Shown: positions 51,912 to 62,866, counted from the first letter of the stretch. The stretch: DNA of 64,000 nucleotides from Myxococcus dinghuensis (GCF_024198235.1 NZ_JAKCFB010000015.1:62001-126000), one strand, 5' to 3'. The notes: a model not told the origin generated them from the sequence alone. Translations and numbers: made by a program.

Positions 51912-53126
51912 ATGCGTCCTTCCGCCCTGTGCCTCGCCGTGCTGTTGAGCGCCCTGCCCGCCCTCGCGGGCCCGGGCGCCTTCGTCTCGGATGTCCGCGT
52001 GGACGCGGTGGAGCAACCGGAGTCGCCCCGGGTGGTGTTCACCGTGGAGCCCGGCACGTCGTATCCCCTGCTCAAGAAGGGTGGACCGGACCGGGCGTGG
52101 TGCAAGCTGCGGGGCACCACGGCGGAGGGCTGGGTGCTCTGCGAGGGCGCCCCCGAGTCCGCCATGCCCGAGCGCCCCAGCGAGGAACAGCTGGTGGCCG
52201 CGGACCGGGCGGACGCGGCCCAGCGCGCCGAGGGCCGGGAGCGGCTCCGGGCCGAGTTCGCGGCCCAGCGCGCGGAGAAGCCCCAGGACACCGGGCTCGC
52301 CCAGGCGGGGGGGCGCGCCGGAGCGGGCGCGGGCGCCCCCGCGCCGACCGACGACGATGACCTGGGGCCCACGGTGGAGGTGGCGGCCCCGGCAGCCCAG
52401 GCGCCTCGCGGTCCCATCACCGTGACGTGGAAGCCCGCCACCGGCTGCGCGACCACGTGTTCTCGCGCGCCGCTCTTCGCGAAGTCCCCTGCCCTGTCCG
52501 ACATGGACCGGGCGGTGCTGGACCTGTGCCCCGCCCGCCCGGATACGAGCGTGAGCGCGGGCGACGTGCGGCGCTTCGTCGCGCGGCACGTCAACGACCC
52601 GCGACTCCAACTGGCGCTGTCCGCGGCGGGGCGGCCGGGCGCGCGCCAGGCGAACATCGACTGGTTGACCAGCCTGTGGGTGGGCACCGGCCCGCGCAAC
52701 GCCTTCACCCATGTCTTCTGCGGAGACGATTGGGACCGGGGCCCCATCGGCGGGCTGCACTTCCTGCCGCGCTACGCCCAGCTCGAGGCGCAGGGGAAGG
52801 TCTGCTACGGCGGTCCGGTGAGCGGCGGCGCGGCGAAGCGCGGCGGCCAGTACCTCATCCGCTACCAGGGCGTCGCGCCGTGGTCCTGCGGCGAGAAGAA
52901 GGTCGGCGGCTTCACCGAGTCCCCGGACGCGGTGGGCCTCCTCTCCATCGGCACCCGGGCCTTCGCGCGCTGCTGCGCCCGTGACGGCGCGAAGAAGGAA
53001 GGCGGCGTCTACGCCGCCAAGGACCTGGGCGGGACGAACTGGCGCATCTGGTGTGGCACGCGCAACGGCACCTACGGCATCGCCACGCTGCACCCCACCG
53101 ACGACGCGGCCACCTGCGGCGAGTAG
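51912..53126 (+). CDS. Exported SH3-like plus EndoU-like protein
   Basis: A 404-residue exported protein. Residues 1-19 are a signal peptide (ALPALA). A bacterial SH3-like domain covers about 27-80 (VFTVEPGTSYPLLKKGGPDR). A charged and then Gly/Ala/Asp-rich linker runs to about 165. The C-terminal domain (about 240-404) resembles the EndoU/XendoU ribonuclease fold: FTHVFCGD with H267, then IGGLHFLPRYAQLEAQGKVC with H283, and a C-terminal GGTNWRIWCGTRNGTYGIAT. Ten or so cysteines suggest disulfides. If the fold is right, this is a secreted or periplasmic RNase, possibly a toxin, but no immunity gene is seen. The ATG lies eight bases after TAGACT. Confidence 0.7.
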   Translation: MRPSALCLAVLLSALPALAGPGAFVSDVRVDAVEQPESPRVVFTVEPGTSYPLLKKGGPDRAWCKLRGTTAEGWVLCEGAPESAMPERPSEEQLVAADRADAAQRAEGRERLRAEFAAQRAEKPQDTGLAQAGGRAGAGAGAPAPTDDDDLGPTVEVAAPAAQAPRGPITVTWKPATGCATTCSRAPLFAKSPALSDMDRAVLDLCPARPDTSVSAGDVRRFVARHVNDPRLQLALSAAGRPGARQANIDWLTSLWVGTGPRNAFTHVFCGDDWDRGPIGGLHFLPRYAQLEAQGKVCYGGPVSGGAAKRGGQYLIRYQGVAPWSCGEKKVGGFTESPDAVGLLSIGTRAFARCCARDGAKKEGGVYAAKDLGGTNWRIWCGTRNGTYGIATLHPTDDAATCGE

Positions 53127-53162: not shown

Positions 53163-54554
53163 TCAGGGCTCCACGTACTCGCGAGGCCGGTAGCCCAACC
53201 GCACGGCCTCCTGCTGGCCGTGGCGCAGCGGGTCCTGGAACGCGCAGGTGTTGCCCGTCTGCGTCGAACAGCCCAGCGGCAACATCCGACGCCAGATGAG
53301 GTTGATGAGGTCGTCCGACATGGGCGAACTCCCGAAGGTGCCATAGCGCACGTGGATGAAGCGAGAGAGCGCCAGCGGGGCGATCCACGACGTCGTGGTG
53401 CGGGAGATGGGGTAGATGTCCACGCCGAACCCGTCCACCTGGAGCAACGGCGTCGCGTTGTAGGGGAACGGGCGGCTGGGGAGCACGCCGCTGTTCAGGT
53501 AGATGTCGACGTTCTCGCGGCCCGGCCACCCGGACAGCCCGGACGTGTTACCCCGTCCGGACGCGTCCAGCCCCGAGTCCAGCACGGTGAAGTAGCCGAC
53601 GAGCATCCGGTTCGGGTACTGCGCCGCCGGGTAGTCGTAGGGGTAGTCCTGCGGGTTGGACGCGTTGATGGAGGCCTGCGCGGTGAACACCCCGGGCGTG
53701 TGGAACAGGGCATCCGCGATGGGCTGGTAGGTGCTCAGCTTGGCCCGGAGGATGTCGTCGCCGGGCAGGTCGCCACCGCAGTGCTCACGCCACTCGGCGC
53801 GCAACGACTCCAGCGTCTCCCCGCTGCTCAGGTTGACGAACCGGATGTTGTGCTCCGACATGACGCGCCGCAGTTCGCTCGCCACCCGCTGCGCCTTCTC
53901 GAACATCCGCCCCATGGAGTCGATGGAGCCCGACGCGTCGCACAGGTCCTCCTGCGCGTACTTGTGGAAGCTCAACTGGTCCATCAGCACCAGCGGCTGG
54001 TGGGGGTTGGCCTCCACCAGCAGGGACAACACGTAGCTGCCGTGCCCCACGTTGCCCATGTCGTAGAAGCCATACACCTCGCGCATCGGCTCGGCGAGCG
54101 GACGCAGGTACTCGGCGGGCACGAAGTCCGGTGAGGCGAACTCACTCAACCCCTCGAAGAGCACCCGGGGCGCGCGCCAGGCGTGAGGCGCCGCGGTGAT
54201 GCTCCCCCCCGCACCCACGCGGTAGTAATTGCGGACCCGGTTCTTGTAACGGATGACGCGCGGCGGCAGCGTGGGGAACTCGTCGATGACGAGGATGGCC
54301 TCCCCGGTGTTGTGCGTCATGGCGAACTGCCCGGGCGCGAACGGGAAGTCCCCCCAATTACAACCTGATGTGTCGGATTGGCGGAAACAGGTGTCTGCGA
54401 GGACTCGCGTCCGGACGACCTCGATGCGCTCGGCGACCACCGGGTCCAATTGATAACCCGCGTCCGGCTCGGGCGTCGGCGCGGGGTCCGGCCCGCACGC
54501 GACCCCCGCCAGAACGAGTCCACAGACACCCCACCGCGATGAAAGGAATGACAT
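53163..54554 (-). CDS. Divergent subtilisin-like (S8) protease lipoprotein
   Basis: A 463-residue predicted lipoprotein (lipobox LAGVAC, acylated C20). It keeps what look like the subtilase elements in the right order: D91 in AILVIDEFP, H171 in VGHGSYVLSLLVE, the oxyanion Asn N241 in RFVNLSSGE, and S389 in TTTSWIAPLA, which aligns with the GTSxAAP block. The spacing fits an S8 fold, but the surroundings differ from common subtilases, so activity must be shown. Paired cysteines occur near the N- and C-ends. It starts eight bases after the stop of the anchored unknown gene and is third in the Hint cassette, so it is probably made with those two proteins and acts at the same membrane face. Confidence 0.78.
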   Translation of the reverse strand: MSFLSSRWGVCGLVLAGVACGPDPAPTPEPDAGYQLDPVVAERIEVVRTRVLADTCFRQSDTSGCNWGDFPFAPGQFAMTHNTGEAILVIDEFPTLPPRVIRYKNRVRNYYRVGAGGSITAAPHAWRAPRVLFEGLSEFASPDFVPAEYLRPLAEPMREVYGFYDMGNVGHGSYVLSLLVEANPHQPLVLMDQLSFHKYAQEDLCDASGSIDSMGRMFEKAQRVASELRRVMSEHNIRFVNLSSGETLESLRAEWREHCGGDLPGDDILRAKLSTYQPIADALFHTPGVFTAQASINASNPQDYPYDYPAAQYPNRMLVGYFTVLDSGLDASGRGNTSGLSGWPGRENVDIYLNSGVLPSRPFPYNATPLLQVDGFGVDIYPISRTTTSWIAPLALSRFIHVRYGTFGSSPMSDDLINLIWRRMLPLGCSTQTGNTCAFQDPLRHGQQEAVRLGYRPREYVEP

Positions 54555-54562
54555 GTCTTGGC

Positions 54563-55393
54563 TCAGCCCTCGAGGAGTGAGGCGGTCATCTGCGCGGCGC
54601 GCTCGCGGCCGTACTGGGCCTTGAGGCGAAGGAATACCACCTCATCATAGATGCGTCTGACGCTCTCTGGCATGGCGGACGAATACCCGAGCGAGCGGAC
54701 GAGGCCCGGGTCTCCATCCGCCAATGACTTCACACCCTTCACGTCGATGAAGGCATGCATCAGGTCTCGCAGGTCCGTGGTGCGTCCCTTGTTCAGCTCC
54801 TGACCCATCCCACCCACCGCGGTCAGCTCGCGGGCGATGGTGTCCACGGAGCCGAGCAGGTAGCGGTCGTCCCCGCGCTTCGCGGCGGTCTTCACCACCT
54901 CGATGGAGAAGAAGCGCGCCTCCGCCTGCATCTCCCCGAAGGCCTCGTGCGCGAAGGCCTCGTCGGCGATGGCCCGGGCGGCGATCTCCGCGCCCTGGGG
55001 CGACGCGAGGATGCTCTCCACGACCTTCCGGCGCTTCACGTTCTGGTTGTACAGCCCCTGCACGGACAACATCTCCCGGTAGTTCTCGAGCTGCGCGCCC
55101 AGGCGCTCGCGAGAGAAGCCACCGACCTGCTCCGGGGGCACGGGCGCCGTCGGCATCGCCGCCAGACGCTGGCGGGCCAGCTCCTCCGCCTTGGCCTCCA
55201 GCTTCTCCGCGACCTCCTTCGGGAGCCCCTGGGCCGACACGCCCAGCGCCACCGACTCCTGCGTCGCGCGCCCGTCCTCGGGCGAGGCGACGGCGGCCCC
55301 CGTGTCGGGCCTCGAGGACAACAGGACGCTCGCGCCCAGAACGAGGGCAGCCAACACCACCAGCGCCACGCGCCACTGAACCTTCTTGGACAT
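54563..55393 (-). CDS. Membrane-anchored helical protein of unknown function
   Basis: A 276-residue protein I do not recognise. One N-terminal transmembrane helix (about 8-27, RVALVVLAALVLGASVLL) anchors a periplasmic domain. A linker leads to a helical domain from about 60, with EVAEKLEAKAEELARQRLAA, ENYREMLSVQGLYNQNVKRR and repeated charged helices to the C-terminus (LKAQYGRERAAQMTASLLEG). No cysteine or catalytic motif is seen. It sits between the Hint lipoprotein and subtilase genes and probably shares their transcript: 85 bases after the first and eight before the last. A scaffold or chaperone role for one partner is possible but only inferred. Confidence 0.78.
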   Translation of the reverse strand: MSKKVQWRVALVVLAALVLGASVLLSSRPDTGAAVASPEDGRATQESVALGVSAQGLPKEVAEKLEAKAEELARQRLAAMPTAPVPPEQVGGFSRERLGAQLENYREMLSVQGLYNQNVKRRKVVESILASPQGAEIAARAIADEAFAHEAFGEMQAEARFFSIEVVKTAAKRGDDRYLLGSVDTIARELTAVGGMGQELNKGRTTDLRDLMHAFIDVKGVKSLADGDPGLVRSLGYSSAMPESVRRIYDEVVFLRLKAQYGRERAAQMTASLLEG

Positions 55394-55478
55394 GACTCGG
55401 CCTCGCCAGCAGGGAAACGCCAGGGCGGGGCGGCCCGGACGGCACCGCCCCACCACTTCGACGCGGATGCGCTAGGGC

Positions 55479-56423
55479 TCAGCGACGGACGACGATGGAG
55501 CCCAGCTCACGGGCCAGCTGGTTCTGCCACGCCAGGTCGCCCACGATGACGCCCTGCGCCGCCAGGAAGTGCCCCGCCTTGTCCTCGGAGGAGACCTCGA
55601 AGTTGAACACGTCCTCCTTGGTGAACTCGCGCGTCACGCGCTCGATGACGACGATCTCACCCTTGAGACCCACGAACTCGTCACCCGAGCGGACCGTCTT
55701 GGCCTCCACCACGCGGCCGTCGCTCAGCAGCATGCCGTGGTTCTGCGTCACGGCCAGGTTCTGGCCGTTGTCCAGGTGGAACACATAGAGGGCCGGCGAC
55801 TCCTCGCCGCGCGACACGGCGACGATGGGGCGACCCACGAAGCCCGGCGCCGTCAGCGTGGACTCCTCGTCGAGCGCGACGAGCTCCGTCGTCGTCTGCA
55901 CGGACTTCGCGGACAGCCACTCGCGGAAGCCCTTGGAGTCCAGCGTCAGGATCTGCGTGGTCGCCTCGAAGCAGCCACACTTGCAGACCGCGCCGATGTT
56001 GTTGTGGCGGTCGACCACCGGGTAGTAGCCCGTGGAGACGCCCCAGTTGTACGCGGCCTGGGTGATGAGCTGCAGGCCCAGCGCGTAGTCCAGCTCCGCC
56101 TGGCACTCCGTCCAGGAGATGCCGCCCACGCAGCGGCTGGTGTTCTGACCCGCGACGGACTGGTAGGTCGCCAGGTTCATGCCCGGACCGGTGTCCGAAC
56201 CACCCGTGCCACCACCACCGCCGCCACCACCACCGCCGCCGCCACCGCCGCAGAGGCCCTGGTTGAGCGCCTCGACCGGACACTCCTCGATGGGGATCAG
56301 CTCCTGCGTCGCGCTACCCACCGACTCCTTCTCGCTCTCCGACGCAGGCGTCGGCTGACCACAACCGGTTACCGCAAGGCCCATCCCCAGACACACAGCA
56401 AGCACAATGCCACGGCGATCCAT
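55479..56423 (-). CDS. Lipoprotein with C-terminal Hint (hedgehog/intein) domain
   Basis: A 314-residue predicted lipoprotein (lipobox AVTGC, acylated C21). A linker with 14 consecutive glycines (59-72) is followed by a Cys-containing middle part (90-150). The Hint domain begins at C151 in KCGCFEATTQILTLDS. Block B is LAVTQNHGMLLSDG (T226 and H229), followed by EAKTVRSGDEF. The last strand block is VFNFEVSSEDKAGHFLAAQG, and the intein C-terminal HN is replaced by GD (VIVGD). So the N-S shift and thioester step could work, but protein splicing should not. The result could be self-cleavage or attachment to a nucleophile, as in hedgehog or bacterial BIL proteins. GGAG precedes the ATG. First gene of the cassette. 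Confidence 0.86.
   Translation of the reverse strand: MDRRGIVLAVCLGMGLAVTGCGQPTPASESEKESVGSATQELIPIEECPVEALNQGLCGGGGGGGGGGGGGGTGGSDTGPGMNLATYQSVAGQNTSRCVGGISWTECQAELDYALGLQLITQAAYNWGVSTGYYPVVDRHNNIGAVCKCGCFEATTQILTLDSKGFREWLSAKSVQTTTELVALDEESTLTAPGFVGRPIVAVSRGEESPALYVFHLDNGQNLAVTQNHGMLLSDGRVVEAKTVRSGDEFVGLKGEIVVIERVTREFTKEDVFNFEVSSEDKAGHFLAAQGVIVGDLAWQNQLARELGSIVVRR
56208..56249 (-). repeat. Poly-glycine tract in the Hint lipoprotein gene
   Basis: Fourteen Gly codons, a mix of GGT and GGC (CCG/ACC read on the plus strand), make a 42-base repetitive run. It is a likely slippage site and forms a flexible linker between the lipid anchor and the rest of the protein. Confidence 0.9.
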
Positions 56424-56748
56424 GATTGGACTCCATTGACAGCTTGAGGTTTGGAGGTCGAGTCGCTCTGGACACCCGGTGCGCTCAATGATGAGCAGCC
56501 TGAGTCAACGGAGCCTCTCCCCTACTTCTGGGAATCACCAGCTCCAGGAGAGTCGCGCAAGGGATGATGCCGGATTCTCTTCCCGAGAGAGAGGAATCTC
56601 TCTCGGTGAACACTATCCACGCAAAGTGCGACAAAATCAATATACACGGAAATAGTGGAAACCCGTATGTATGTCGAATCACATTCCACGCCGCACGAAC
56701 AATTCCATCTCAACCACCCTGGATGGACATTCGTGCGGCATGGTCGTG
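56424..56748. other. Intergenic region between the alpha-2-macroglobulin and Hint genes, unusually AT-rich
   Basis: About 325 bases with no convincing gene. The base composition is much lower in GC than the rest of the window, with stretches such as AAAATCAATATACACGGAAA near 56633-56652. It must hold the Hint cassette promoter on the minus strand, but no single box pair stands out. It contains the 24-base inverted repeat listed separately. Confidence 0.6.
56583..56606. repeat. Perfect 10-bp inverted repeat with GGAA loop
   Basis: CCGAGAGAGA (56583-56592), loop GGAA, then TCTCTCTCGG (56597-56606). The two arms match perfectly. It lies about 140 bases after the alpha-2-macroglobulin stop and 160 before the Hint start on the minus strand, so it may be a terminator without a T-run, an RNA stem in the Hint leader or a protein-binding site. 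Confidence 0.75.
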
Positions 56749-59700
56749 CTATTTCGACGCTCCCACGGTAAGGACGGCGCCCGTCGAGTACGCGGTGAAC
56801 TCCGGCGCATACATGGATTGCACGGTGGCCGGGCCCACGCGGAAGGTGCCCGCCATGTTCGCGCGCAAGCGATACTTGAATGTGTATTCGCCCGCAGGCA
56901 GCCACTCGAAGAAGAAGTTGGTGTTCGCGTCGCGTGTCTCCTCGTACCAGACGATGCCGGAGTCCCACTTGTGGCGGGACTGCGCGCCCTCCGGCTCCAG
57001 GCCCGCCGCGCGGGGATCCCTCAAGTGGACGTACTCGGCCGCGTGCTTCGAGCGCAGCGACAGTTGCACCTCCACTTCGTCCCCGGGGACGAGCGCCGCG
57101 CCCTCGACGAGCGGGCGGAGCACCACCTGCTGGCCCTCGCGCGCGCGCAGGAAGTAGCGGCGTGACACGGAGAAGAAGTCACCCCGGTCCTCCTCCGGCA
57201 GCGTCTCCGTGGAGAAGTGCCACGTGGCGGAGGCGAAGGCGAAGCCCGGCGTCGTCTTCTCCACCACCACCGTGCTCATCGTCTGCGGCTGGAGCTCGGG
57301 CCCCGGCACCACCACCTGGTTCTTCTTGCCGGTGTACACGTCCGGGGCGAACTCCATGCGCGTGACGCGCGGCCCCACCGTCACCTGGGCGTCCTCGCGC
57401 ACGCCCAGCGCCCCTTCCGCCTCCAGGTACTTCACCAACGCGTAGAGGGCCTCCGCCGTGGCGCGCGTGGACTTCCAGTGGTTGAGCTTCTTGTCCAGGA
57501 GCAGCCACTGCACCAGGCCCTCGCGTCGGGTGTCCTTGGGCGACAGCTCGGTCAGCGTGCGCAGCGCGAAGGCGTGCGTCTCCGTGGTGTCGTTGTACCA
57601 GAGCCAGCTACGGTCCTCGGGCGCCCAGTACGTCCCCAGCTCCGGGCTCGTCTTCGCGGAGTCCATCACGCTGTCCCAGACGCGCCGGGCATCCGCGCTC
57701 CGGCCCGCGCGCGCGAGCGTCAGCGCCAGGTAGCCCTTGAGCATGGGGGAGTGCTCCTTCCAGTGCTTGAAGCTGAAGGCCAGCATCTGCTCCCGGTCCG
57801 AGGCGGTGAGCGCGTCGCCCGTGTAGCCCGGTCCCGGATAGGCGGAGGCCACGTGGTTGAGGAAGGTGATGAACTCCCAGCCCTCGCCCTTCTTCATCAG
57901 CTTGCCGGCGTACTCCTCGCGGAAGTGCCGCGCGAGATAGCCCCAGGCATTGCGCGTCATCTCCTCCGGCACCGGCACCTCGTACTCGAGGGCGCGCGAC
58001 AGGCCGTGGAGGATGTAGAGCGTCATGTACGGCGAGGGCGGGCCGCCCGGCCACCAGGGGAACCCGCCGCTGGCCGTCTGCGCCTTCTGCAGCTTCGCCA
58101 TCGCGGCGTTGCGCTCGGCGTTCGCCACCTTCGGGTCCAACACCTTCACATGGCCGGCCTCGCCCGCCGGGCCCCCCTTGGCCATCTCCAGCCACGGGGT
58201 CTCCTCCAGCGCCATCTTCCGGTTCGGGTCGACGGAGTCCCACGTCTCGAGGCGGGTGTCGCGCTCGCTCAGCGTCTTGGCCATCTTCGCCACCGCCGGG
58301 TAGCGACCATAGAGGCTGGTGAGGATGCCGGACGAGACGAAGCGGTTGAGCGTCTGCTCCGAGCACTCGTAGGGGTAGTCCACCAGGTACGGCAGGGCCT
58401 GGAGCGCGGAGTAGAAGAGCTGTGTATCCACCGTGACGACGAGCTGCTCGTTGATGCGCGTGGGGTCACCTCCCTGCTTCAGGTCGTCGAAGCGCATCGT
58501 CTTGGTGTCCTTGCCCTTGAGCGTGACGAAGCGCGACTGCGCCAGGTGGATGCGGCCGGGCAGCACGGGCAGCGGGCGCAGCTCGCCGTCGCTCAGGTTG
58601 CCGGCGCGGGCCTCCACGCGGAAGGCCACCTGCCCCACGCGCGCGGGCGTGGTGAGCGGGAAGCGCAGGTGGGTACCCTTGCCCGGGGCCACGTCGAAGG
58701 TCTGCGACGCGTTCTTCACCCCGAAGTCGGCGAGCAGGCTCTTGCGCGTCTCCACATCCACGATGTCCAGCGTGAGGGTGCCCTGCTGGGACCGCTCCGC
58801 CGCGTTGTTCACCACCACCTCCAGCACCGCGCGGTCTCCCTCGCGCAGGAAGCGCGGCACGTACGGCCGCACCATCAACTCCTTCACGCTCTGGGTCGTG
58901 CGCTGCGCGGAGCCGCCCTTCAAGTCGCGGGTGACGCCATGGACCCAGACGTTCCAGGCCGTCACCGAATCGGGGACGGTGAACTCCAGCGTGGCGGAGC
59001 CATCCGCGTCCGTGAGCAACTGCGGCACCCAGAAGGCGGTCTCCGCGAAGTTGGAGCGCATCGACACGGCCTCGGGGGACGCGCCTGCCTCGGGCGCCGC
59101 GTTCGCGGACTTCTCCTTCGCCAGGGGCTTCGCCACCGACTCCTGCATCACCATGCCCGGAGCGGGCGGTGGCGGCGGTGGCGGTGCGTCCGCGGGCTTG
59201 GGCTCGGCCACGGGCGCCGCCGACCTGCGCGCCCTCTCCATCCGGCCCGTCGCCATCATCGGACCGGAACCAAACCCGCCGCGCGCCCCCGGGCCCCCCA
59301 GTCCGTAGCCCTCCTCGAACTTGAGCCGGTCCACCGCGGGCGGCTCCCATCCCGGGGATTCACCGTAGCGGTCGGAGACGAGCCACATCGTGTTCGCGAC
59401 GGACAACGAGGACGGCAGGAGCGTGGTCGACCCCCGCGCCGGGTACAGCGCCGCCACGTCCTGGGGCGTGTGCTTCATGAACAGGTCGAGCGATTGGTCA
59501 TACATGTACGCGAGCAGCTCGGCGGCCCCCGCCTCCACCTTCGCCCCGCGAGGCCCCGTCACCTTCACCCGCCAGGTCTCCTTCGCGCCTGGGCGAAGCT
59601 TGTCGCGGAACGTGGAGAACTCGAGGCTCAGCTCCTTGTCGTCGAACGGCACGGACACCTGCGTGTTGAACCGGAGCAACTGCCAGTCACGCACCGCCAC

Positions 59701-62700
59701 CAGCACCGCGCTGAAGCCGCCGCGCAGCGCCTGCGTCACGGGCACCTCCACCACCGCGGGCGTCTGCCCCGCGACCAGGGGCATGCGCGTCACGCGCTTC
59801 TCCCCCTGGTACAGGTCCAGCATCAGCGGCTGTCCCTCGAAGCCGGACGCCACCAGGAAGCGCGCCACGTCGCCCACGCGCACCGTCGGCTTCTCCTGCA
59901 CCAGCGCGGCGGGCAGCGCCACCGGCGCGCGCGCCCCGGCCACCAGCAGCTCGCGCTTCACGGTGAACGTCTTCCCGAAGGCGTCCGTCGTCTCGTATTG
60001 CAGGCGATAGGCGCCCGCCTCCAACGCCGGCAGCTTCACGCGCGCGAGCCCCTGGGCGTCGTGGCGGACCTCTCCCTTCGCCCGCTCCGCGCCGTCCGCC
60101 CACGAGGCCAGCGTCGCCTGGAAGTCGTAGTCCTGCGCCCAGCGCGGCTGCTGCGCGTCACCCGGGGTGGGCGTGCTCACCGCGTCCGGGTCCTTGCGCG
60201 TCGGTGGCTGCACGAGCGGCTCGTCTGCGGGCAGCACGGGGCGCTTCGGCTGCTGGAGCGCGACGAGCCGCCAGCGCCCGGCGCCGGGGAGCGGCGCGCC
60301 GTCCAACGACGAGCGCACGAACCGCACCTCGGCGGGGGTCCCCTCGCGCAGGAAGTTCTCGTCCGTGTCGACGCGGCCCTCCACGGCGATGAAGCCCAGC
60401 CGGAAGGCACGCTCCGCCGAGCGCGTCTCTCCGCCCTCGTCCGTCGCGTCCGCCTCGATGCGATAGCGCCAGGTGAGGTCCTCCGAGCGCGCGGCGCGCT
60501 CATCCGCCTCGGGCGTGAAGTTCACCTGGAAGGAGCCGTCCTCCGCCAGCGAGGTCGTGCCGGCGGCCACGAGCTGCCGTTGCTGGGGGACGAAGGAGGA
60601 GCGCCACCCCCACCAGAACGGGAACACCGGCTCGCGGAACGCGCGCCAGCGCACGGTGCCCGTGGCCACGGGCAGGCCGAAGTAGTAGCGCGCCTCGCCC
60701 TTGAACGTGGCCGGCCGGTTGAGCCGCAGCGGGGCCTCCGGGTCCTTCAGCGAGACCTCGAAGGTGGGCCGCTTGTACTCCTCCACGCGCACCATGGCCG
60801 AGCCCCCGGAGTCGACACGCACCTGCCACAGCCCGAGCACGCGCCCGGTGGGGATGGCGAACTCCCCCGCCGCCGTGCCGAAGGCGTTGGTGCGGACCTC
60901 GCGCCGGGCGACCTCCTGGTAGTTGGGGTCCATCAGCGTCACCACGAGGCGCTCGTCCGGCCGCGTCTGGTAGCGCGCCTGCTCGCTCCGCCCCCGGAAG
61001 GCCACCACCTTCCACTGCAGCTTCTGCAACGGCCGGTAGACGCTGCGGTCCGTGAACACGAGCGACGACGTCAGTTCGCTGTCGCGATCCCTCGCGTAGA
61101 CGCTCGCGCCCGCGTCCAGCATCCGCGCCTCGCGCCCCTTCCCCACCACCAGCCGGTAGTACCGGTAGTCCGTCCTCGAAAGCTGGGGGAAGGACACCTC
61201 GCCCTGGGGATTGGTGGTCGCGCGGGCCACCTCGCGCAGCCCCGTGCGGTAGTCGACGAGGAACACCCGCACCAACGTCTCCGAGAGCGGCGCGCCCGTG
61301 TCGCCCTTCACGACGCGCACCTCCAGCGGCGCGCCCTGCCCACCCTGGGGGAGCGCCACCCACGGGACGATGGAGAGGAAGACCCCCTGTGCGCGGTTGG
61401 AGGCCTCGCGGAAGCCCGCGTCCGCCGAGGCGATGATGGCGTAGGTGCCGGACTCCTTCAGCGGGGGCGTCACGAAGGTACGGTGCTGCGCGAAGTCCCG
61501 CGTGGCGGGGAGCTGCGCGGTCCAGGACGCGACGGGCTTGCGGTTCTTCAGATACCCCCGCAGCTCGCCATCCGTGGGCAGCTCGCTCGAGTCGGACGAG
61601 CCCTTGAGCTTCTCGAGCCGCGCCTCCACGTCCACCGCGTACGCGCGGAAGTGGAGCGTGGGCACGTTGCGGTGGGTCACCTGGAGCGAGCGCTGGCCCG
61701 GGCCGTCCATCGTGAGGCCCGCCAGGGAGAAGTCGGGCGCCTCGATCTGCGCCTGGACGGTGCGACACCGCCGGCCGCCCACCGACTCCGGGAACCGGGT
61801 CCGCCCCTCGGACGCGAGCTGATGCGCGCGCACCAGGTGACCGGCCTCGCGCTCCAGCTCCGCCAGGAGCCCCTGCCCCATCGCCCACCAGGGCACGTCC
61901 TGGAACCCCTTCAGGTGCGCGGCGAGGTGCTGGCGCAGCCGGGTGCGGTCGTCCGCGTCCGTGAAGTGCCGGTGCAGCACTTCATGGCGCTTCAGCCTCG
62001 CCTCCAGCGCCGCCTCGCGCCGCCCCGCCGAGCGGTGCCAGGCCTCCAGGTCCCCCATCACCGCCGCCACCTTCAGGAGCGGATGGATGGCGGGGTCGCT
62101 CAGGTCCACCGTGGGCGTCCCCTCCAGCAGGGAACCCAGGTCGAGCCGGAAGACCTCGTTGGCGTGCTCCGGACGCCAGGTGCTGCTGTCCTGCAACAGG
62201 TCGACGCGCAGGTAGGAGACGGCGTCCCGCAACGTGGGGCGGATGCCGGCGGGGAACGTGTTGGGCTCGAGGAACTCGCCGAGCGCCTTCACCGGCTCCG
62301 CCCCCAGCGCCTGGCGCTGCTTCCACAGCGCCTCGAAGGCCCGCTGCGCCTCGGTGATGATCTGCTCGTACGTCCACGCCTTGAGGTCCACCGGGCCGGA
62401 GGACACGACCTGCTCGCGCTTGCGGACCTCCCAGGCGTAGGCCCGCGCGTACGTCACCAGCGCGTTGGCGTAGTAGAGGTCGAGCGTGGCGTGGGCCAGC
62501 GTGCCCTTGGGCCAGGGCTGCTCGCGCAGGAAGCGCACCGCCGTCTCGTAGCCGTGCAGGGCGGTGCGCAGTTGCACCGTGCGCACCAGCGCGCGCGTCC
62601 ACTCGGCCTCGTCCGGACCGTTCCGGGCGGCCTCGAGCCGGGCCTCCGTGCCCTGCGCGGCGGCCTCCACCTTCTGGTCGTCCACCAGCGCGTCGATGGC

Positions 62701-62805
62701 CTTCCACGACGGCGGGGCAGCCGCCAGGGCGGGGGCGGCGCTCAGGAGACACAGCAGCAACGACAGGGCGATGGACGGTGTCCGTATCCAAGGGGCGGCG
62801 AGCAT
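56749..62805 (-). CDS. Bacterial alpha-2-macroglobulin with thioester motif
   Basis: A 2018-residue exported protein of the alpha-2-macroglobulin family, a large protease trap. A signal peptide ends near SAAPALA (about 30). The N-terminal 330 residues are helical and specific to this type. Macroglobulin domains follow (HFRAYAVDVEARLEKL, VYRPLQKLQWKVVAFRGRSE). The thioester CxEQ motif is C1481-SEQ (DYPYECSEQTLNRF), followed by the thioester domain helices and a receptor-binding-like C-terminus. E. coli YfhM is a lipoprotein paired with PBP1C; here the signal lacks a lipobox and no pbpC gene is adjacent. The ATG at 62805 follows TAGAGT by seven bases. It likely traps proteases of prey or rivals in the periplasm. 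Confidence 0.93.
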   Translation of the reverse strand: MLAAPWIRTPSIALSLLLCLLSAAPALAAAPPSWKAIDALVDDQKVEAAAQGTEARLEAARNGPDEAEWTRALVRTVQLRTALHGYETAVRFLREQPWPKGTLAHATLDLYYANALVTYARAYAWEVRKREQVVSSGPVDLKAWTYEQIITEAQRAFEALWKQRQALGAEPVKALGEFLEPNTFPAGIRPTLRDAVSYLRVDLLQDSSTWRPEHANEVFRLDLGSLLEGTPTVDLSDPAIHPLLKVAAVMGDLEAWHRSAGRREAALEARLKRHEVLHRHFTDADDRTRLRQHLAAHLKGFQDVPWWAMGQGLLAELEREAGHLVRAHQLASEGRTRFPESVGGRRCRTVQAQIEAPDFSLAGLTMDGPGQRSLQVTHRNVPTLHFRAYAVDVEARLEKLKGSSDSSELPTDGELRGYLKNRKPVASWTAQLPATRDFAQHRTFVTPPLKESGTYAIIASADAGFREASNRAQGVFLSIVPWVALPQGGQGAPLEVRVVKGDTGAPLSETLVRVFLVDYRTGLREVARATTNPQGEVSFPQLSRTDYRYYRLVVGKGREARMLDAGASVYARDRDSELTSSLVFTDRSVYRPLQKLQWKVVAFRGRSEQARYQTRPDERLVVTLMDPNYQEVARREVRTNAFGTAAGEFAIPTGRVLGLWQVRVDSGGSAMVRVEEYKRPTFEVSLKDPEAPLRLNRPATFKGEARYYFGLPVATGTVRWRAFREPVFPFWWGWRSSFVPQQRQLVAAGTTSLAEDGSFQVNFTPEADERAARSEDLTWRYRIEADATDEGGETRSAERAFRLGFIAVEGRVDTDENFLREGTPAEVRFVRSSLDGAPLPGAGRWRLVALQQPKRPVLPADEPLVQPPTRKDPDAVSTPTPGDAQQPRWAQDYDFQATLASWADGAERAKGEVRHDAQGLARVKLPALEAGAYRLQYETTDAFGKTFTVKRELLVAGARAPVALPAALVQEKPTVRVGDVARFLVASGFEGQPLMLDLYQGEKRVTRMPLVAGQTPAVVEVPVTQALRGGFSAVLVAVRDWQLLRFNTQVSVPFDDKELSLEFSTFRDKLRPGAKETWRVKVTGPRGAKVEAGAAELLAYMYDQSLDLFMKHTPQDVAALYPARGSTTLLPSSLSVANTMWLVSDRYGESPGWEPPAVDRLKFEEGYGLGGPGARGGFGSGPMMATGRMERARRSAAPVAEPKPADAPPPPPPPAPGMVMQESVAKPLAKEKSANAAPEAGASPEAVSMRSNFAETAFWVPQLLTDADGSATLEFTVPDSVTAWNVWVHGVTRDLKGGSAQRTTQSVKELMVRPYVPRFLREGDRAVLEVVVNNAAERSQQGTLTLDIVDVETRKSLLADFGVKNASQTFDVAPGKGTHLRFPLTTPARVGQVAFRVEARAGNLSDGELRPLPVLPGRIHLAQSRFVTLKGKDTKTMRFDDLKQGGDPTRINEQLVVTVDTQLFYSALQALPYLVDYPYECSEQTLNRFVSSGILTSLYGRYPAVAKMAKTLSERDTRLETWDSVDPNRKMALEETPWLEMAKGGPAGEAGHVKVLDPKVANAERNAAMAKLQKAQTASGGFPWWPGGPPSPYMTLYILHGLSRALEYEVPVPEEMTRNAWGYLARHFREEYAGKLMKKGEGWEFITFLNHVASAYPGPGYTGDALTASDREQMLAFSFKHWKEHSPMLKGYLALTLARAGRSADARRVWDSVMDSAKTSPELGTYWAPEDRSWLWYNDTTETHAFALRTLTELSPKDTRREGLVQWLLLDKKLNHWKSTRATAEALYALVKYLEAEGALGVREDAQVTVGPRVTRMEFAPDVYTGKKNQVVVPGPELQPQTMSTVVVEKTTPGFAFASATWHFSTETLPEEDRGDFFSVSRRYFLRAREGQQVVLRPLVEGAALVPGDEVEVQLSLRSKHAAEYVHLRDPRAAGLEPEGAQSRHKWDSGIVWYEETRDANTNFFFEWLPAGEYTFKYRLRANMAGTFRVGPATVQSMYAPEFTAYSTGAVLTVGASK

Positions 62806-62866
62806 GGTCGGCACTCTAGACGCAGGCCGCCGCCCGGGCGTTCCACTTCCCGCGCGACCCGTGGCG

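Follow-up and report, generated by a model that had tools for sequence, protein, structure and literature searches.

A gene set of the cell envelope recurs in the myxobacteria, which are predatory soil bacteria, and one complete three-gene copy lies in the window, the stretch of 64,000 nucleotides of Myxococcus dinghuensis analysed here (contig C32 of the source genome, G000; G and L numbers denote genomes and loci). Judged by its sequences, the set appears to pair a Hedgehog/intein-type protein that cuts itself (HINT) with a dedicated membrane-anchored partner (MID) and usually with a secreted protease, represented in the window by PROT. The tight core of the set is HINT plus MID, while the protease is optional and replaceable.

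Layout of the gene unit

The open reading frames of the window confirmed that three genes lie close together on the minus strand, as an earlier note on this DNA had described, all in one orientation and with gaps of 85 bp between HINT and MID and 8 bp between MID and PROT (Table 1). Because HINT is preceded by a gap of 325 bp and PROT faces a convergent neighbour downstream, the three genes can be one transcription unit. Its promoter likely resides in the 325-bp gap; no sigma-70 promoter match was found there.

Table 1. Features of the gene unit, in window coordinates
Feature	Position	Strand	Basis or remark
HINT, 314-aa lipoprotein with C-terminal Hint domain	55479..56423	-	ORF; residue conservation; family profile
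HINT conserved N-domain, about residues 82-150	55974..56180	-	ends at Gly150, predicted cleavage junction
HINT Hint domain, residues 151-296	55536..55973	-	Cys1 = Cys151 at 55971-55973
HINT T226	55746-55748	-	Hint block-B TxxH residue
HINT H229	55737-55739	-	Hint block-B TxxH residue
MID, 276-aa protein, N-terminal membrane helix and helical domain	54563..55393	-	AlphaFold model; homologue matches
PROT, 463-aa lipoprotein, divergent subtilase-fold protease (by model)	53163..54554	-	invariant D/H/S; structural match
PROT D91	54282-54284	-	invariant in 28 homologues where ungapped
PROT H171	54042-54044	-	invariant in 28 homologues where ungapped
PROT S389	53388-53390	-	invariant in 28 homologues where ungapped
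Lower-GC gap of 325 bp upstream of HINT	56424..56748		candidate promoter region

Across this gap, on the same strand, the unit adjoins a gene for an alpha-2-macroglobulin-like protein of about 2000 aa (56749-62814). We rejected it as a fourth part of the cassette, since it persists in genomes with a reduced or broken cassette (G003, G005, G014, G015) and was not seen in the other cassette loci examined. The convergent gene beyond PROT (51912-53126, plus strand) encodes a secreted protein with a weak match to EndoU nuclease (E 9e-5, under the Pfam cut-off).

HINT and its catalytic residues

The N-terminus of HINT carries the lipobox VTGC, and Cys21, Cys151, T226 and H229 are all invariant among 10 close relatives. 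The single HINT sequence matched the Pfam model PT-HINT only under the Pfam cut-off (E 0.0013); 19 of 22 family members matched it, the best at 3e-6. Against solved structures, the family profile found a bacterial intein-like (BIL) domain (2LWY, E 4.6e-6), the radA intein (9.4e-6) and other inteins at about 1e-5. HINT is thus a lipoprotein with a Hint domain, as had been proposed.

We then compared 120 non-redundant HINT homologues, selected by the TxxH motif, so that its Thr and His (both 120/120) were selected for, while Cys1 was not a criterion. Of their Hint domains, 119 begin with Cys and the remaining one with Ser, and the residue before this position was only ever Gly, Ser or Ala. In all 120, the terminal His-Asn of inteins was replaced by Gly-Ser, Gly-Asp or Gly-Thr, the window's HINT having Gly295-Asp296 at this place; a self-splicing intein is thereby ruled out. 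The Hint domain spans 143-151 aa in the family and is followed by a tail of 17-36 aa. HINT therefore retains the residues for thioester formation and has lost those for C-terminal cleavage, so that, as in Hedgehog, its chemistry should go no further than cleavage on the N-side.

The N-domain in front of the Hint domain has no Pfam match. Its Cys98 and Cys147 are kept in 99-100% of the 120 relatives and probably form a disulfide. In 25 out of 145 related ORFs the N-domain is present without a working Hint domain, and all 25 have a Cys at the place four residues before Cys1. Some of these paralogues end right at the predicted junction or beside it, one with FCAE-stop (L120, 9984-10331) and two with CESIY-stop (L162, L165), while others have a different C-terminal part in place of Hint, for example Cys-rich repeats. 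Such proteins argue that the N-domain is the product unit and the Hint domain its processing tail. Between lipobox and N-domain runs a stretch of glycines (about residues 58-74; 56204-56252, minus strand) whose length varies and which is missing in some relatives.

MID accompanies HINT

The AlphaFold model of MID (pLDDT 83) shows a membrane helix at residues 4-24 and, after a linker of low confidence, an all-helical domain at residues 59-275, and MID matched no Pfam family, which bears out its description as a single-helix anchored protein without a family. A fold search returned only generic helical repeats, with Z up to 6.7, under the chance level for helical models. At many loci the same position beside HINT is held by a MID-like family of the same build (clusters C4 and C6, which iteration joins into one). 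Profile comparison of MID with MID-like proteins by hhalign was colinear and scored 61-67% in local and up to 78% in global mode, against less than 1% for unrelated clusters, and on these profiles the two are probably distant homologues.

In 195 Myxococcota genomes, we found 13 strong MID matches in 11 genomes, every one beside HINT, and 38 places with distant MID-like genes, each of the 38 with a HINT gene no more than about 3 kb away by coordinates. No MID without HINT was found among these genomes. Over all fetched loci, MID or MID-like genes shared the strand of the nearest HINT in 81 of 81 cases.

PROT, a subtilase-fold lipoprotein

The lipoprotein Cys20 of PROT is invariant, and so, wherever the alignment of 28 homologues is ungapped, are its Asp (26/26), His (27/27) and Ser (27/27), which stand in subtilase order along the sequence. 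The oxyanion Asn is not fixed in the homologues, both candidate positions also holding Asp, Ser or other residues. PROT matched no model of Pfam or NCBIfam, Peptidase_S8 (PF00082) matched none of 12 family members, and sequence and profile searches against PDB chains found nothing. The AlphaFold model (pLDDT 75, pTM 0.80) has a subtilase fold. Its best Foldseek matches were kumamolisin (E 3e-4), site-1 protease and other subtilases, and on structural realignment VIA reached Z 13.7 (rmsd 4.5 over 254 residues), the top 50 rows being subtilases throughout. As the profile of PROT gave no alignment with that of ordinary S8 proteases, it is the model on which the subtilase fold rests. By this model PROT is a divergent subtilase-fold lipoprotein family, and the subtilase-type lipoprotein that had been read from its motifs is upheld. 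A distant homologue (L125, 7866-9098, E 8e-22) occurs near a relative of the Hint family in a Myxococcota genome of 1.8 Mb (G173).

Conservation of the cassette

About a dozen other units in Myxococcaceae have HINT, MID and PROT in the same order and on the same strand. The close cassette is present in G063, G069 and G062 (tandem copies), G029, G040, G053, G144, G156 and G159, and in G017 with a broken PROT. All three genes are under purifying selection (pN/pS 0.16-0.32 in a close pair of genomes), and their pairwise distances correlate with r 0.93-0.97 (Mantel p 0.0002) over ten units, to which shared species history contributes.

PROT is also found, in at least ten genomes, with neither HINT nor MID. 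At the syntenic position of the window, G003 and G005 have PROT only, the PROT of G014 is split into two pieces and G015 retains a remnant. Conversely, in the single-contig genome G017, PROT is frameshifted (L031, 4780-6215) next to an intact HINT and MID, and a second, intact PROT lies elsewhere in the genome. PROT is thus dispensable to the HINT-MID pair, and pair and protease can be lost separately. Because no MID was found without HINT, yet PROT often stands alone, the protease is the optional part. The profile search across the 195 genomes therefore sustains part of the cassette proposed earlier: order and strand recur, neighbours stay neighbours and MID is always near HINT, but it is HINT and MID that form the lasting unit.

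Exchange of the protease

MID or a MID-like gene accompanied 59 of 68 HINT loci, and a protease 52; the loci are mutually related, so such proportions describe the sample and are no statistical test. At an S8 gene density of about 11 in 10.4 Mb, a gene would be expected to have one within 8 kb by chance about 2% of the time. More than one protease clan is represented, namely PROT, ordinary S8, M4 and M1, the last two jointly at many Myxococcus loci; one locus (L036) has a possible S1-like protein, by motif only. Beta-propellers (SBBP, Kelch, RCC1) and a CxxCH protein also stand beside the HINT-MID core. In 16 of the 68 loci, several of them at contig ends, the stretch examined showed no recognised protease, its place being taken by propellers or CxxCH proteins. 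Loci L045, L049, L118 and L121 combine HINT and a MID-like gene without a recognised protease. Myxococcota with genomes of 1.7-1.8 Mb have the layout HINT-S8-MID-like-Kelch, and a HINT-MID-like pair occurs in the gammaproteobacterium Algicola sagamiensis.

The earlier note had suggested that the members might process each other. The exchange of PROT for S8, M4, M1 or propellers beside the same core counts against a specific cleavage pair of PROT and HINT and favours a client or co-effector.

Discussion

We consider it somewhat probable that in this conserved envelope module of myxobacteria a lipid-anchored protein that processes itself in the manner of Hedgehog works with an obligate handler anchored in the membrane and with a protease as client. 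The mechanism that we infer, and with it a purpose for the module, would run as follows. HINT would be exported as a lipoprotein precursor composed of a small, probably disulfide-bracketed N-domain and the C-terminal Hint domain. The latter, assisted by T226 and H229, would catalyse an N-to-S acyl shift at Gly150-Cys151, a cleavage that we propose from the conserved residues and from established Hint chemistry (PMC7664689). As HINT lacks the C-terminal His-Asn and cannot splice, an outside nucleophile should resolve the thioester; this could be water or else an amine or hydroxyl group that an envelope partner provides. The Hint fragment would thereby be set free, and the N-domain would stay on its lipid anchor, possibly with a covalent bond to something else. 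MID, with its one-helix membrane anchor the obligate partner of HINT, is most likely a periplasmic handler that would contact the HINT precursor and hold or deliver it until it arrives at its site. PROT would be an exchangeable envelope subtilase, a client at the same site that may act on an outside substrate or remove the spent Hint fragment. Doubtful, if possible, is the bolder joint proposal of a bacterial Hedgehog-like surface system, in which HINT, with MID as its dedicated membrane-anchored handler, would hand its N-domain covalently to an envelope acceptor and the swappable surface proteases or propellers would serve as acceptors or co-effectors.

Might the protease, be it PROT or its S8, M4 or M1 substitute, instead be the maturase of HINT, with Hint cleavage following or minor? 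A protease is indeed near HINT at most loci, and the spacing of MID and PROT, at most 8 bp in the window as in its relatives, points to translational coupling. The idea is weakened by the change of clan among loci at which the N-side active site of HINT stays complete, by the four loci with HINT and a MID-like gene and no recognised protease, and by the solitary PROT genes, and we hold it to be unlikely. These solitary genes, together with the lack of any MID found without HINT, also speak against MID as a steric foldase for the protease, with HINT an independent neighbour. Lif-type foldases consist of an N-terminal membrane helix, a variable linker and an all-helical periplasmic domain. MID shares this architecture and immediately precedes PROT; no sequence or fold match to Lif was found, however, and MID is tied to HINT and not to an enzyme. 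The Pfam Lif model (PF03280) matched none of 18 MID and MID-like members; a genome search for Lif was silent everywhere, its controls included, and so carries no weight. A foldase role strikes us as decidedly improbable.

Two further readings concern the Hint domain itself. It could be catalytically silent, a structural or binding module, given that only the N-side residues remain and the C-terminal His-Asn is gone. Near-absolute conservation of Cys1, Thr and His over 120 proteins and an invariably small preceding residue make this quite unlikely. That PT-HINT is the best Pfam match might point to a delivery unit of the polymorphic-toxin type, with Hint releasing a toxin; with Hint at the C-terminus and only the short tail behind it, there is nothing to release, no immunity-like gene was seen and the ends are conserved rather than polymorphic, so that we give this reading hardly any weight.

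The autoprocessing module that we prefer has its closest parallels in known Hint systems. The Hog domain of Hedgehog performs N-side chemistry only, whereas BIL domains yield mostly N- and C-cleaved products (PMC7664689). With Hedgehog (Hh-N plus Hog), HINT shares a secreted N-domain, a C-terminal Hint, the motif small residue-Cys-[FY], TxxH and the lack of a C-terminal Asn. It differs in being bacterial, in an N-domain without Pfam match, in its gene partners and in showing no sign of sterol; its Hint domain is about 145 aa long, and the tail is too short for a sterol-recognition region. With BIL domains HINT shares the bacterial Hint fold, 2LWY being the best PDB profile match of the family, but the BIL His-Asn for C-cleavage is the pair replaced throughout the HINT homologues. 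PROT in turn resembles subtilases (S8) and sedolisins (S53) in fold and in Asp-His-Ser order, and is set apart from S8 as a divergent lipoprotein family without Pfam match or profile alignment.

In the parts of its account available to us, Burglin 2008 described a divergent, unnamed bacterial group whose proteins have signal peptides, a Hint domain at the C-terminus and, upstream of it, two conserved Cys; its members include STIAU_1829 and MXAN_6253 and occur in Stigmatella, Myxococcus, Reinekea, Photorhabdus, Serratia and Yersinia (PMC2362128). By this description the HINT family, which shares these features and myxobacterial members, is probably the same; the gene neighbourhood, the partner and the protease are absent from those parts (PMC2362128). 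No main-text mention of MXAN_6253, STIAU_1829 or plu1731, as typed, was found in the partial literature searched, nor any description there of the HINT-MID pair, its association with proteases, the PROT family or the cassette. The view that no system of this make-up had been described thus stands, within that literature, for the cassette, while the Hint family itself has probably been seen before.

Secreted bacterial Hint proteins, noticed by 2008 without a role, are here placed in a conserved gene neighbourhood and given an obligate partner, which opens a way to test their role. Myxococcus xanthus, a species open to manipulation, also has the wider module, and its strain AM003 carries HINT-MID-like-S8 (L115 and L129). 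Our analysis also defines, in PROT, a family of model-predicted subtilase-fold lipoproteins missed by every Pfam model. If the N-domain is indeed transferred to an acceptor, this would be a bacterial parallel of Hedgehog processing.

Some neighbours of Hint genes recur as well. Many HINT-MID-like-S8 loci (L106, L107, L108, L141-L145, L155-L159) have two flanking genes in common, which come as a pair, one for a HEAT/vitellogenin-N protein (C8) and one for a beta-rich secreted protein (C7). The source genome encodes two more Hint proteins, on contigs C13 and C59 (L101, 4204-6102, 632 aa; L102, 2801-4726, 641 aa), which end in Gly-Asp, not His-Asn, and have long unrelated N-parts; their relatives are common in Myxococcaceae. 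A family of CxxCH-motif lipoproteins stands beside several Hint proteins (L101, 6382-7938; L045, 8872-10998 and 15849-17906; L112).
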